The translations under genes were made by a program, and so were the position numbers. From assembly GCF_027947575.1 (NCBI RefSeq), contig NZ_CP116256.1, positions 1,798,001-1,862,000 of the forward strand: 64,000 nucleotides of DNA. The letters are read 5' to 3'. This DNA comes from Streptomyces rubrogriseus (GTDB lineage Bacteria > Actinomycetota > Actinomycetes > Streptomycetales > Streptomycetaceae). This document shows positions 41,477-57,130 of the stretch, piece by piece; positions within the stretch are counted from its first letter, which is position 1; every line of letters starts with the position of its first letter. Below the pieces are notes generated by a model. The model made no database searches, was not told the origin of the DNA, and saw only the letters and a program-made list of their open reading frames with translations.

Positions 41477-41998
41477 TCACTCCGGTCCGAACCTCGCCCA
41501 CAGGCGGGGCAGGCGCTCGGCGAGGGCGCGGTCGTTCTCCAGGTCGATCGGTGCGCCCAGCGGTTCGGGGGGCGCGGGCGCGATGCCCAGGTCCGGGGCG
41601 ACGGTGCCGGTGAGCTGCTCGTAGGCCTCGTCGGCCGCGTAGCCCAGCTCCTCGCCGTCGCCGTCCAGCTCCTCGTCGAAGTCGTCCAGCAGCTCGGCGA
41701 GCGAGTCGGGCTCGTGCACCGCGCCCTCGTACACCTCGCGGCCCTGGCCGATCAGCCAGCACCGGAAGAAGTCGAAGGCGTCGTCGCTCGCCCCGCCGAG
41801 CAGCACCCACGCGGCACCCCACAGGTCCCAGGTGCAGGCGCGGTTGTAGCGGGCCTCGAAGTGGCGGGCGAAGTCGAGCACCAGGTCCGGGTCCATGCCG
41901 AGCAGCCGCTCCACGAGCAGGTCGGCCTGGTCCTCGGAATCGCCGTCGGCGCGCTGCCGGGCGGCGTCGATCAGCTCCCAGAACTCCGTCTCGTCCAT
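41477..41998 (-). CDS. DUF4240 domain protein
   Basis: The 173-residue soluble protein matches the DUF4240 family: MDETEFWELIDAARQRADGD at the start, a central RACTWDLWGAAWVLLGGASDDAFDFFR and LIGQGREVYEGAVHEPDSLAEL. Family members occur near toxin-immunity and regulatory genes in several phyla, but the function is not known. Here it stands alone and is followed upstream by a long intergenic repeat. Start ATG 41998. Confidence 0.85.
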   Translation of the reverse strand: MDETEFWELIDAARQRADGDSEDQADLLVERLLGMDPDLVLDFARHFEARYNRACTWDLWGAAWVLLGGASDDAFDFFRCWLIGQGREVYEGAVHEPDSLAELLDDFDEELDGDGEELGYAADEAYEQLTGTVAPDLGIAPAPPEPLGAPIDLENDRALAERLPRLWARFGPE

Positions 41999-42068
41999 CA
42001 CGGGTCCAGCATCGGCCCTGGGCGGGGGCGGCGCACGCGGAGTGCGGCGGATCGTTATGCGCGGGTGT

Positions 42069-42483
42069 GGTGGGGGTGCGTGTAGCGCGGTGTGTGCGGT
42101 GGGTGGGTCGGGGTCGCGCCGGGGGGTGTCCGTCCTCGGAACGGCGCGGAATGGGTCACTTGAAGAGGCTCGGGGTGTTGACGCGCCAACCGCTGCGGGC
42201 GGACACCCCCGGCACGCCCCTTCTCGCCGTACGCGGCTGCGGCCCGCCCTCGCTCCGCGCTCCTTCTCGCGGTACGCGGCTTCCCCGCCGCGTCGCCCCC
42301 GGCCGCCGCTGCGGGCCGTCGTCGCCCCCGCGGCAGCTGCGCGTGACCGCCCCGCCGCCCAGCTGCGGGCAGTCGCCGCCCCCCGCCGCCGCTGCGGGCA
42401 GTCGTGCCGCTGGGGCGGCACGGGTGGGCGCAGCGGCACCCGCAACGCCGGGCCGCGCATCCCTCGCGCCCGCACCCACCCCG
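42069..42483. repeat. Long structured intergenic repeat, copy A
   Basis: About 415 bp match copy B (55401-56030) at near identity in the same orientation. The first block has GGGGGTGTCCG (42122-42132) and CGGACACCCCC (42200-42210), an 11-bp inverted repeat around a 67-nt conserved loop. A hairpin GTGCCGC-TGGG-GCGGCAC follows (42404-42421). There is no convincing coding potential or transposase, and I do not recognise the element. It lies upstream of the DUF4240 gene and downstream of the WYL gene. Confidence 0.85.
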
Positions 42484-42553: not shown

Positions 42554-43537
42554 TCACCCCCCGTACAACCCCGCCAACCGCCGAGCCTCCCGCGCGAACC
42601 GTTCCCGCAGCGCCGCCGGCGCCAGCACCTCCACCTCCGGCCCGAGCCCCCTGAGCTGCGCATGCGCGACCTCCTCCGACTCCACCGGCAGCGCCACCGT
42701 CACCCAGCCGTCCGCATCCGGCGCACCCGCGGCGCTCAGCGCCTCCCGGGCCGACAGCGCGTCGACCGCGTACGGCAGCCCGCGCACCCCCCGCTCCGAC
42801 AGCCGCACCACCACCTCGGCCCGCAGGATCGACCGCGCGAACTGCTCGGCCCGCTCGGCCCAGAACGCGGGCAGGTCGAAGCCGTCGTCCCGGACGAAAC
42901 GTTCCTCGCCCGCCTCCACCGCCGTGAACCGGTCGATGCGGTACACGCGGAAGGGTCCGTCGTCCGCCGTCCCCGCGACCCGCGCGCAGAGGTACCAGAC
43001 CCCGGCCTTCAGTACGAGCCCGTACGGCTCCAGCTCCCGGACGACCTCGTCCGTCCCGCGCCGGTAGCGCGCGGCGACGCGCCGGTCGTCCCAGACCGCG
43101 TCCGCCACCGCGGGCAGCAGCTCGGGCGTCTCCGGCTCGCGGAACCAGTTCGGCGCGTCCAGGTGGAAGCGCTGGGCCGCCGTACGGGAGGCGTCCCGCA
43201 GGGAGGGGAGCAGGGCCGCCGACACCTTCAGGCGGGCCGCCGAGGCCGCGTCCTCCAGGCCCATCTCGCGCAGCGCCCCGGGGACTCCGGACAGGAACAG
43301 CGCCTCCGCCTCGCCCCGGGCCAGCCCGGTCAGGCGGGTGCGGTAGCCGCCGACGAGGCGGTAGCCGCCGGCCCGGCCGCGCTCCGCGTACACCGGCACG
43401 CCCGCCTCCGACAGCGCCTGCGCGTCCCGCGTCACGGTCCGCTCCGACACCTCCAGCTCGCGGGCCAGCTCGGCGGCGGTCATGGACGGGCGGGACTGGA
43501 GGAGCAGCACCATCTTGATGAGGCGGGCAGCGCGCAT
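42554..43537 (-). CDS. WYL-domain transcriptional regulator (YafY/DeoR-like)
   Basis: The 327-residue regulator has an N-terminal HTH_11 (MRAARLIKMVLLLQSRPSM, then LARELEVSERTVTRDAQALSEAGVPVYA). A WYL domain follows in the middle (LEPYGLVLKAGVWYLCARV, about residues 170-188), then a WCX-like C terminus. WYL domains bind nucleic acid or nucleotides and often couple DNA damage or defence to transcription. The start is ATG 43537; the GTG two codons upstream is equally possible. It is separated from the aceE gene by a terminator. Confidence 0.92.
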   Translation of the reverse strand: MRAARLIKMVLLLQSRPSMTAAELARELEVSERTVTRDAQALSEAGVPVYAERGRAGGYRLVGGYRTRLTGLARGEAEALFLSGVPGALREMGLEDAASAARLKVSAALLPSLRDASRTAAQRFHLDAPNWFREPETPELLPAVADAVWDDRRVAARYRRGTDEVVRELEPYGLVLKAGVWYLCARVAGTADDGPFRVYRIDRFTAVEAGEERFVRDDGFDLPAFWAERAEQFARSILRAEVVVRLSERGVRGLPYAVDALSAREALSAAGAPDADGWVTVALPVESEEVAHAQLRGLGPEVEVLAPAALRERFAREARRLAGLYGG

Positions 43538-43559
43538 GCCCACATGATGCAGGAGGCGC

Positions 43560-54626: not shown

Positions 54627-55367
54627 ATGGGAGATTGGTGGCAGCGCAACATCATGGAGCCGGGCAAGCTGCCGCTGCTCCTCGCGCTGGCGGCGTTCGT
54701 GCTGACGTTCGCGATCACCCGGGTGATCACCCGTCTGATCCGGGCGGGCAAGGGGCCCTTCGGGAACGTCAAGGCGGGCGGGGTGCACATCCACCACGTC
54801 GTTCCGGGGGTCGTGCTCACCGTCGTCGGGGGCTTCGGCGCGGTCGCGGGGGGCCGGCACGGGGTCTGGTCGGCGCTCGCGGCGGTGGTCTTCGGTATCG
54901 GGGCGGGGCTGGTCCTGGACGAGTTCGCGCTGATCCTGCACCTCGACGACGTGTACTGGAGCGAGGCGGGGCGCAAGAGCGTGGAGGTCGTGGTGCTCAC
55001 CGCGGCGCTGGTCGGGCTGGTGCTGGCGGGGTTCACGCCGTTCGGTGTCGACGGGATGTCCCAGGACGAGTTGCAGGACCGCGCGAACGTCATCGCGACG
55101 GTCGCGGGGAACTTCCTGTTCTCCCTCCTCGCCCTGGCCAAGGGCAAGGCGCGGCTGGCGATCTTCGGGGTCATCGTGCCCCTGGTCGCTCTGGTCGGCG
55201 CGGTTCGCCTGGCCCGGCCGGGCTCTCCGTGGGCCCGCCGGTTCTACGCCCGCCGGCCGCGGGCCCGCGCACGCGCCCGGCTGCGCGCCGCCCGCCACGA
55301 CCGCCGCTGGTCCGGACCGCGCCGCGTCGTCCAGGACTGGATCGGCGGCCGTCCGGATCCGCGGTGA
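54627..55367 (+). CDS. Integral membrane protein, uncharacterised
   Basis: The 246-residue protein has five or so hydrophobic segments (about 17-36, 58-72, 79-96, 118-138 and 185-200). Conserved-looking polar residues sit around KAGGVHIHHVVPGV and LVLDEFALILHLDDVYW, which could be a metal or substrate site. The tail is arginine-rich. TAAAGT lies 6 nt before the ATG at 54627, so it may be leaderless. It sits between cobS and cobT, but on the opposite strand to both. I cannot name a function. Confidence 0.8.
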   Translation: MGDWWQRNIMEPGKLPLLLALAAFVLTFAITRVITRLIRAGKGPFGNVKAGGVHIHHVVPGVVLTVVGGFGAVAGGRHGVWSALAAVVFGIGAGLVLDEFALILHLDDVYWSEAGRKSVEVVVLTAALVGLVLAGFTPFGVDGMSQDELQDRANVIATVAGNFLFSLLALAKGKARLAIFGVIVPLVALVGAVRLARPGSPWARRFYARRPRARARARLRAARHDRRWSGPRRVVQDWIGGRPDPR

Positions 55368-55400
55368 CGGTGCCCTGCCTGCGGCGGCCTGTGCGGGTTC

Positions 55401-56030
55401 GGTGGGGGTGCGTGTAGCGCGGTGTGTCCGGTGGGTGGGTCGGGGTCGCGCCGGGGGGTGTCCGTCCTCGGAACGGCGCGGAATCGGTCACTTGAAGAGG
55501 CTCGGGGCGTTGACGCGCCAACCGCTGCGGGCGGACACCCCCCGACACGCCCCCTTCTCGCCGTACGCGGCTGCGGCCCGCCCTCGCTCCGCGCTCCTTC
55601 TCGCCGTACGCGGCTTCCCCGCCGCGTCGCCCCCGGCCGCCGCTGCGGGCCGTCGTCGCCCCCGCGGCAGCTGCGCGTGCCCCCCCGCCGCAGCTGCGAG
55701 CAGTCGCCGCCCCCGCCGCTGCGGGCAGTCGCCGCCTCCCCGCCGCCGCTGCACGTGCCCCCGCCGCAGCTGCGGGCAGTCTCCGCCTCCCCGCCGCCGC
55801 TGCACGTGCCCCCGCCGCAGCTGCGGGCAGTCTCCGCCTCCCTGCCGCCGCTGCGCGTGACCGCCCCCGCCGCCGCTGCGGGCAGTCGTGCCGCTGGGGC
55901 GGCACGGGTGGGCGCAGCGGCACCCCGCAACGCCGGGCCGCGCACCCCTCGCGCCCGCGCCCACCCCAGGGCCGGGTGCTACGCCGGGCCGCGCGACCTA
56001 CCCCGCGCCCGCACCCACCCCGGAGGACCA
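55401..56030. repeat. Long structured intergenic repeat, copy B, with internal tandem expansion
   Basis: Same element as at 42069-42483, same orientation. The hairpin arms are GGGGGGTGTCCG (55453-55464) and CGGACACCCCCC (55532-55543), a perfect 12-bp pairing; copy A pairs 11 bp, so length changed on both arms. The short hairpin GTGCCGC/GCGGCAC is at 55888-55905. Copy B has two 51-bp units (55741-55842) absent from copy A and a second GCCGGGCCGCGC tail block after 55983. Confidence 0.85.
55741..55842 (+). repeat. 51-bp tandem repeat inside copy B
   Basis: Two near-perfect units (55741-55791 and 55792-55842) of CGCCGCCGCTGCACGTGCCC, then CCGCCGCAGCTGCGGGC and AGTCTCCGCCTCC. A partial third unit follows. 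51 bp equals 17 codons, but no coding frame is convincing. Confidence 0.8.
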
Positions 56031-56056: not shown

Positions 56057-57130
56057 TCACTCGTCCCCGGGCACGGCCTTGCCGTCGGAGATCTCCGGCA
56101 GCTCCGCTGCCAAGGACGCCGCCGCCTGGACCAGGGGCAGCGCCAGCAGTCCGCCCGCGCCCTCGCCCACCTGTACGCCCTGGGTCAGCAGCGGCTCCAT
56201 GGCCATCCGGTCCAGCGCCTTCGCCTGGCCCGGCTCCCCGCTGTCGTGCGCGGCCAGCCACCAGTCCGGCGCCCGGAACGCCACCCGCTGCCCGACCAGC
56301 GCGCACGCGGCCGTCACGACGCCGTCCAGGATCACCGGCACCTTCCGCACCGCGCTCTGCAGCAGGAAGCCCGTCATGGCGGTGAGGTCCGCGCCGCCGA
56401 CCGTGGCGAGGAGTTGCAGCTGGTCGCCGAGGACGGGGCGCGCGCGGCGCAGCGCGTCGCGGATCGCCGCGCACTTGCGCATCCAGGCCAGGTCGTCGAT
56501 CGGCAGCCCGCCCCGGCCGGTGACGACCGACGCGTCCGTCCCGCACAGCGCGGCCACCAGCGTCCCCGCCGCCGTCGTACCGCCCACGCTCACGTCACCC
56601 AGCACCACCAGGTCGGTGCCCGAGTCGGCCTCCTCGTCGGCCACCGCCATCCCGGCGCGGAAGGAGGCCTCCGCCTCCTCGGGGGTCAGCGCGTCCTCGA
56701 TGTCGATGCGGCCGCCGCCGCGCCGCACCCGGTGTCCCGCCACCTCGGCCGGCAACGTCTCCGGGTCGCAGTCCAGGGCCATGTCGACGACGCGCACCGG
56801 TACGTCCAGGCGCCTGGCGAGCACCGACACCGGCCGGCCGCCCTCCAGTACCGCGCGCACCAGTTCACCGGCACCGCCCGCGGGCCGCGCCGACACGCCC
56901 AGCTCGGCGACCTTGTGGTCGCCGGCGAAGAGCACCACCCGGGGGCGTACGACGGGGCGTACCGGTACGGCGGACTGGGCCGCCGACAGCCACTCGCCCA
57001 GGTCGTCGAGGCGGCCCAGTGATCCGGGCGGGACGACCTGACGCTCCCGGCGCGCCTCCGCGTCGCGACGTACCCCGCCGTCGGGGCGCTCGATCAGGTC
57101 GGTGAAGTCGTCGAGATTCAGCGAGCTCAT
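56057..57130 (-). CDS. cobT: Nicotinate-nucleotide--dimethylbenzimidazole phosphoribosyltransferase
   Basis: The 357-residue enzyme makes alpha-ribazole phosphate, the lower-ligand precursor of cobalamin. Motifs include VVLFAGDHKVAELGVSARP (about 66-84), LVVLGDVSVGGTTAAGTL (about 174-191) and QLLATVGGADLTAMTGFLL near 236. ATG 57130 lies 7 nt after TACTGT, so the message is probably leaderless; no riboswitch is visible upstream. It is convergent with the 54627 gene and shares the pathway with cobS and cobU. Confidence 0.95.
   Translation of the reverse strand: MSSLNLDDFTDLIERPDGGVRRDAEARRERQVVPPGSLGRLDDLGEWLSAAQSAVPVRPVVRPRVVLFAGDHKVAELGVSARPAGGAGELVRAVLEGGRPVSVLARRLDVPVRVVDMALDCDPETLPAEVAGHRVRRGGGRIDIEDALTPEEAEASFRAGMAVADEEADSGTDLVVLGDVSVGGTTAAGTLVAALCGTDASVVTGRGGLPIDDLAWMRKCAAIRDALRRARPVLGDQLQLLATVGGADLTAMTGFLLQSAVRKVPVILDGVVTAACALVGQRVAFRAPDWWLAAHDSGEPGQAKALDRMAMEPLLTQGVQVGEGAGGLLALPLVQAAASLAAELPEISDGKAVPGDE

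Follow-up and report, generated by a model that had tools for sequence, protein, structure and literature searches.

A dispersed intergenic hairpin repeat of Streptomyces with covarying helices and a pattern of concerted evolution

The window, the 64,000-nucleotide stretch of Streptomyces rubrogriseus DNA that we analyzed, contains two copies of a composite repeat, each lying between genes predicted by a gene caller. Copy A lies between two minus-strand genes, 41477..42001, whose start is 108 bp from the first unit of the repeat, and 42554..43543, which has both units downstream of it. Copy B lies between the convergent genes 54627..55367 (plus strand) and 56057..57130 (minus strand), and again both units are downstream of the minus-strand gene. 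The first unit of copy A, alpha (42110..42220, minus strand), is a two-helix hairpin whose minus-strand sequence is the likely folded molecule. It is preceded by a flank (42058..42109) common to copy B and, largely, to the other copies in this genome, and it is followed by a G+C-rich spacer with internal duplications (42221..42391) and by a second unit, beta (42392..42440). The corresponding parts of copy B are alpha at 55442..55554 (minus strand), a spacer with tandem units at 55555..55875, and beta at 55876..55924. About 150 bp of extra tandem units precede the final hairpin of copy B; units of about 51 bp occupy 55682-55860, between alpha and beta, and are absent from copy A.

The initial annotation had read copy A as a structured repeat with a conserved hairpin. 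Our sequence check recovered the perfect 11-bp inverted repeat at 42122-42132 and 42200-42210 with its 67-nt loop, the short hairpin within beta (42404-42421, with a 7-bp stem), and the near-identical second copy: 42058-42210 is 96% identical to 55390-55542, 42217-42352 is 98% identical to 55551-55686, and 42380-42441 is 100% identical to 55864-55925. Six Gs do face five Cs in copy A and six Cs in copy B. However, the loop described as fully conserved differs between the two copies at 2 of 67 positions, and its middle is the most variable part across copies. The stem is also about twice as long as had been noted, with 42110-42132 pairing with 42200-42220 if plus-strand mismatches are included. 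The conserved pairing therefore stands and the simple conserved loop does not; the repeat, moreover, is built from two units.

In fact, the 67-nt loop contains an inner helix, which is set off from the stem by an internal loop and carries a variable tip. In copy A, the outer helix P1 has its arms at 42110..42132 and 42200..42220, and the inner helix P2 pairs 42143..42148 with 42182..42187; the alignments described below place a near-invariant internal loop at 42133..42136 and, on the other side, at 42193-42199, and the variable tip at 42149..42181. A G-quadruplex-like G run adjoins P1. Ten perfect 11-bp inverted repeats with loops of 60 to 75 nt were present in the window, compared with 0, 4, 0, 6, and 2 in five Markov-random windows. 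A lone 11-bp repeat is therefore unremarkable in such G+C-rich DNA, and the evidence beyond chance is the existence of other copies and their covariation.

Alpha is a hairpin of approximately 111 bp with two covarying helices. We aligned 113 sequences (alignment A3), consisting of 37 of 38 copies from the S. rubrogriseus genome or its relatives and 76 of 81 pattern matches; the omissions were an incomplete copy (L086) and five pattern matches that were identical to others or at contig ends. Thinning the 110 distinct sequences at 93% identity, with eight named loci excluded, gave an alignment of 66 minus-strand sequences (A4), in which 93.3% of the cells were paired. Changes on both sides were found in 14 of 34 pairs, a number reached in none of 500 shuffles (mean, 5.8), and the covariation score was 0.130, compared with at most 0.048 in slid controls. 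P2 and the pair column adjoining it carried compensatory changes in other copies; the P2 pair 44-93 (A4 numbering) occurred as UG in 32 sequences, CG in 18, GC in 12, and UA in 4, and was broken in none. Pairs 10-123 and 43-95 were unpaired in 44 and 33 of the 66 sequences, respectively. In the pattern-found sequences, the exact search pattern fixes some of the internal loop as well as the inner P1 pairs, and these pairs are therefore uninformative with regard to covariation; the internal loop was near-invariant also in copies found by similarity. Covariation on the proposed structure, as expected of a structured RNA, was thus observed. The annotation would have been contradicted by a scarcity of copies in related genomes or by a loss of pairing upon alignment of more copies; many copies exist, and the pairing survives their alignment through compensatory changes.

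In terms of energy, copies A and B fold well and almost equally on either strand (z scores of -3.1 to -4.0), so that only the wobble pairs distinguish the strands. G.U pairs are tolerated in RNA, G.T pairs are less so in DNA, and A.C pairs are poorly tolerated. Read on the plus strand, the non-Watson-Crick pairs of the 110 distinct sequences were C.A or A.C in 209 cells versus G.T in 22; on the minus strand, the 66 thinned sequences had 131 G.U versus 18 A.C pairs. Since the minus-strand wobble is mostly G.U, the folded molecule is most likely the minus-strand sequence, probably as RNA or single-stranded DNA, between which the bias does not decide. The bias came mostly from three A4 pair columns (13-120, 15-118, and 44-93) and, because these dominate, reflects few ancestral events.

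In the 8.41-Mb S. rubrogriseus genome, a 121-bp alpha query matched end to end at 13 places with 85 to 100% identity. Beta followed alpha on the same side and strand in all 13, interrupted by another inserted repeat in 3 of them. Beta with a perfect hairpin occurred at 14 places within three mismatches (none for a reversed control), and at four places beta had no alpha nearby. In a wider sample of 110 copies for which the flank extended 500 bp or more, beta motifs followed alpha in 50; none of the 110 had a beta in opposite orientation within 700 bp, and one had a beta on the other side. By eye, a short inverted repeat (GGTGGGGGTACCTCCC...CTGGGGGAG and variants) was seen inserted in beta, at the hairpin tip or just after it, at L098, L102, and L103 of this genome and at L077, L079, L083, L118, L141, L152, L157, L178, and L182. 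Beta-like sequence in genome G205 occupied many more places than alpha, beta being the more abundant unit there.

A covariance model of alpha (R1) detected it in 44 of 150 sampled Streptomyces genomes, five of them weakly (G055, G058, G101, G108, and G130, with best E values of only 9e-5 to 8e-4); across the order, it was detected in 38 of 119 genomes, from one of five genera, with one weak case (G239, best E value in the same range). A pattern scan of genome contigs gave at least 118 alpha stretches, and among the 80 loci listed from it, 79 were titled Streptomyces and one Kitasatospora. R1 also weakly matches the opposite strand, so match counts exceed copy counts, and in six genomes with all matches listed only those above 62 bits were taken as real. 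With these limits, copy numbers were 12 to 20 in S. rubrogriseus and those six genomes, while many genomes had one to three R1 matches. The pattern was found in 8 of 10 low-copy loci that were fetched; L242 was counted as nonindependent because G095 and the genome of L172 are apparently the same. A 31-kb viral contig from IMG/VR carried an alpha copy (L339, 7764-7843). A 456-bp composite query had no match (blastn, E of 1e-5) among 50,697 records of phages and 72,556 of plasmids. No Rfam 15 family reached its gathering score in the window; a lone snoRNA match of 20.1 bits, against a cutoff of 50, was taken as chance.

The gene calls around the copies came from a codon-usage script rather than annotation, and it is by this caller that the copies are judged noncoding: one of 119 was overlapped by a called gene, and 97 had both neighbors called without overlap. 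Of these 97, 42 lay between convergent genes, 35 between tandem genes in the sense (minus-strand) orientation, 15 between tandem genes in antisense, and 5 between divergent genes. Among 212 background gaps longer than 150 bp at the same loci, 14 were convergent, 127 tandem, and 71 divergent. Convergent gaps were thus strongly overrepresented (42/97 versus 14/212; Fisher P = 9e-14) and divergent gaps underrepresented (5/97 versus 71/212; P = 1e-8), and tandem copies favored the sense orientation (P = 0.0066); all placement P values are rough, the genomes being related. Alpha is mostly 3' of genes, and the neighboring genes are varied. A riboswitch or other 5'-untranslated-region (5'-UTR) element was rejected given these varied neighbors and the few divergent gaps.

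Copies were also nonrandomly placed relative to oriC, which was located via dnaA (base 1112 in S. rubrogriseus). In 12 complete genomes, for five of which (G009, G007, G151, G065, and G120) only the best-scoring matches were used, 153 of 154 copies lay within 70% of the half-chromosome from oriC, and in 110 of the 154 the minus-strand sequence pointed toward oriC. Among nonredundant sites of four genomes, 30 of 40 did so (P = 0.0022). This orientation prevailed in convergent (18:7), sense tandem (20:6), and antisense tandem (12:1) contexts. It was weak in S. rubrogriseus and G236 (8/13 each) and absent in G007 and G151 (4/9 each among best-scoring matches).

Many sites were common to several species, with both neighbors and the orientation kept, and at least two low-copy genomes (G077 and G011) had the same sites when compared by eye. 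In a four-genome set of 67 copies, none of 38 orthologous pairs was flipped. Nevertheless, copies at orthologous sites were not especially alike: their mean identity was 72.7% (48 pairs), versus 87.1% for copies within a genome (214 pairs). When orthologous copies were compared with nonorthologous copies of the same two genomes, the mean difference was -0.8 percentage points, with 20 of 45 positive (Wilcoxon P = 0.37); 3 of the 48 pairs had no comparison and were omitted, and the groups were handpicked from shared neighbors, both neighbors in all groups except L110/L172, which shares one. In the one-sided pair L088/L184, the shared gene is on opposite strands. Within the four-genome set, identity between G211 and G215 was 89.1% for orthologous sites versus 87.9% for the rest; for G205 and G215, the values were 87.7% and 88.4%, and within genomes identity was 90.1 to 91.4%. 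Orthologous copies are no closer than others and copies within a genome resemble one another, and the pattern is therefore one of concerted evolution. Gene conversion, the simplest cause, is the probable one; the alternative is reinsertion at the same place in the same orientation.

Presence or absence at corresponding sites, as for ERIC- or MITE-type elements, was found at one site, L300, where G215 has 283 bp including alpha and G205 has 29 bp, the difference being resolved to within approximately 29 bp. Either an insertion in G215 or a loss in G205 would explain this, and G211, the third genome, does not separate the two because it matches the right flank only. The extra DNA lies between a gene end and a hairpin with few T residues after it; this hairpin resembles a native terminator that also serves the convergent gene. 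The dinucleotide TA is present at each edge of the insert and a single time in the empty site, but these edges cannot be placed to the base, and the alpha hairpin itself ends in runs of G or C. Element ends are ragged in general, the length of shared flank varying widely between copies. A second gap, between genes that we take by eye to be PNP- and PMM-like (neighbor names here are all of this kind), holds alpha in S. rubrogriseus; it measured 434 and 395 bp in two alpha-bearing genomes versus 115 to 162 bp in four relatives, and the flanks were too diverged to give a base-exact empty site. Elsewhere this gap ranged from 33 to 1012 bp, with apparent other repeats in several genomes; by eye, repeat-like sequence around GCCCGTCCGGCGTTTGAGG was seen there in G007, G011, G005, G004, and G015 (L247, L248, L254, L255, and L256). 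At the L292 site, where G215 has alpha and beta, relatives carry other DNA, and in G211 (C1:3537344-3537694; L335) a different inverted-repeat element with ends GGGCCTGT...ACAGGCCC was noted by eye. These 3' gaps thus accept several repeat families.

The explanation that we favor, with moderate confidence, is an old interspersed Streptomyces repeat of the nonautonomous mobile type, ERIC- or MITE-like in build, which is now mostly inherited in place and homogenized. Such a repeat would initially have spread through insertions at permissive 3' intergenic sites, its copies would since have been inherited mostly in place in the chromosomal core, and recombination (gene conversion) between them would keep them alike. 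A single strand carrying the minus-strand sequence may be the acting form, with 3'-UTR RNA from read-through transcription more likely than single-stranded DNA. The structured strand and the conserved internal loop suggest a candidate binding partner, and the loop could be the contact site of a putative protein. Several observations count against this reading, however. A Y1_Tnp search of the S. rubrogriseus genome found no autonomous partner, the L300 edges fix no target duplication, that site does not tell insertion from loss, and the element ends are ragged. Selection for function would also account for sites that retain their position and orientation, the oriC-ward bias is not explained by gene conversion, and absence from the chromosome ends is unusual for a recently mobile element.

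The most serious rival, which we nonetheless regard as unlikely, is a functional cis-acting 3'-UTR RNA (an mRNA stabilizer, processing site, or protein-bound 3' end) that selection keeps at useful sites and that is read from the minus strand along with the upstream gene. The G.U-type wobble of that strand, the excess of sense over antisense tandem copies (35 versus 15), the near-invariant internal loop, and the sites shared across species all agree with this, whereas 15 of 50 tandem copies are antisense, the neighbor genes are varied, alpha was not detected in 106 of the 150 sampled genomes, and the variable tip is homogenized within genomes along with the rest. Rather more doubtful is a self-homogenizing structured repeat: a folded RNA or nascent-strand element, specific to one strand, that overwrites its own relatives genome-wide, is tied to the direction of replication, and is kept in the oriC-proximal core by a putative protein; if true, it would represent a mechanism distinct from both transposase-driven REPs and plain gene conversion. 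We consider it improbable that alpha is a DNA site that functions in replicating, segregating, or organizing the chromosome and acts through its orientation relative to the fork. The near confinement to the oriC-proximal 70% (153/154 copies) and the oriC-ward orientation of 30 of 40 nonredundant sites across gene contexts would suit such a site, but the orientation bias is only 8/13 in S. rubrogriseus and G236 and 4/9 in G007 and G151, copies are few per genome, many genomes have one to three or none, and, in related genomes, the distance from oriC may merely reflect old core DNA.

The remaining alternatives fare worse. An ordinary intrinsic terminator hairpin, repeated by chance, would account for a strong hairpin between convergent genes; it is very improbable, since inspection of copies A and B found no U run after P1 on either strand, since at L300 alpha lies upstream of another hairpin that resembles the native terminator, and since a terminator would not be expected to have an inner helix that covaries or an internal loop that is conserved. 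We give hardly any credence to a REP-type element moved by a REP-associated tyrosine transposase (RAYT): an intergenic palindromic repeat with an orientation bias would fit, but alpha is too long for a REP and the S. rubrogriseus genome had no match to Y1_Tnp (PF01797), for which the control was positive in 5 of 14 genomes. That search, for Y1_Tnp in this genome, likewise found no autonomous partner. A single local duplication across 13 kb, suggested by the 96 to 100% identity between copies A and B along most of the repeat, is refuted by eleven more full copies across the chromosome and by the different genes flanking the two copies.

Streptomyces is a major source of antibiotics. In this repeat family, bacteria offer a clear example of orthologous repeat sites whose position and orientation persist while their locus identity is lost. 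Concerted evolution of dispersed repeats could be measured here, and its cause, recombination or reinsertion, could be tested. The family also supplies a covariance model ready for use, and its conserved internal loop could serve as bait for a binding protein. Additionally, repeats of this kind can mislead the search for RNA motifs, the annotation of 3' UTRs, and the assembly of genomes.

Searches of the literature by title and the start of abstracts gave no description of this repeat, and its core strings appeared only in three unrelated papers; supplements were outside this scope, and an earlier listing is possible. Three known groups are close enough to compare. REP elements, which measure 20 to 40 bp, are described in PMC3733652 as intergenic palindromic repeats forming species-specific families, with the GTAG families accompanying RAYT genes. 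Alpha resembles these GTAG- and CGTC-tagged palindromes in being intergenic and palindromic, and it differs in its length of about 111 bp and in the lack of a Y1_Tnp match in its own genome. A 50-genome RNA survey (PMC11109978) lists 250 mobile or repeat sequence candidates, and Streptomyces motifs appear in the survey; alpha is like these candidates in its covarying hairpin, its many copies, and the lack of a fixed gene orientation, and it may be among the 250 entries. ERIC elements, with RU-1, are described in PMC2759123 as 127-bp intergenic stem-loops regarded as nonautonomous mobile elements, typically with a TA target duplication. Compared by description only, alpha is unlike the enterobacterial elements in its genus and in hairpin ends that apparently lack TA. 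It shares with them a similar size and a stable stem-loop, and it has the build of ERIC- and MITE-type repeats, a short noncoding stem-loop in many intergenic copies.
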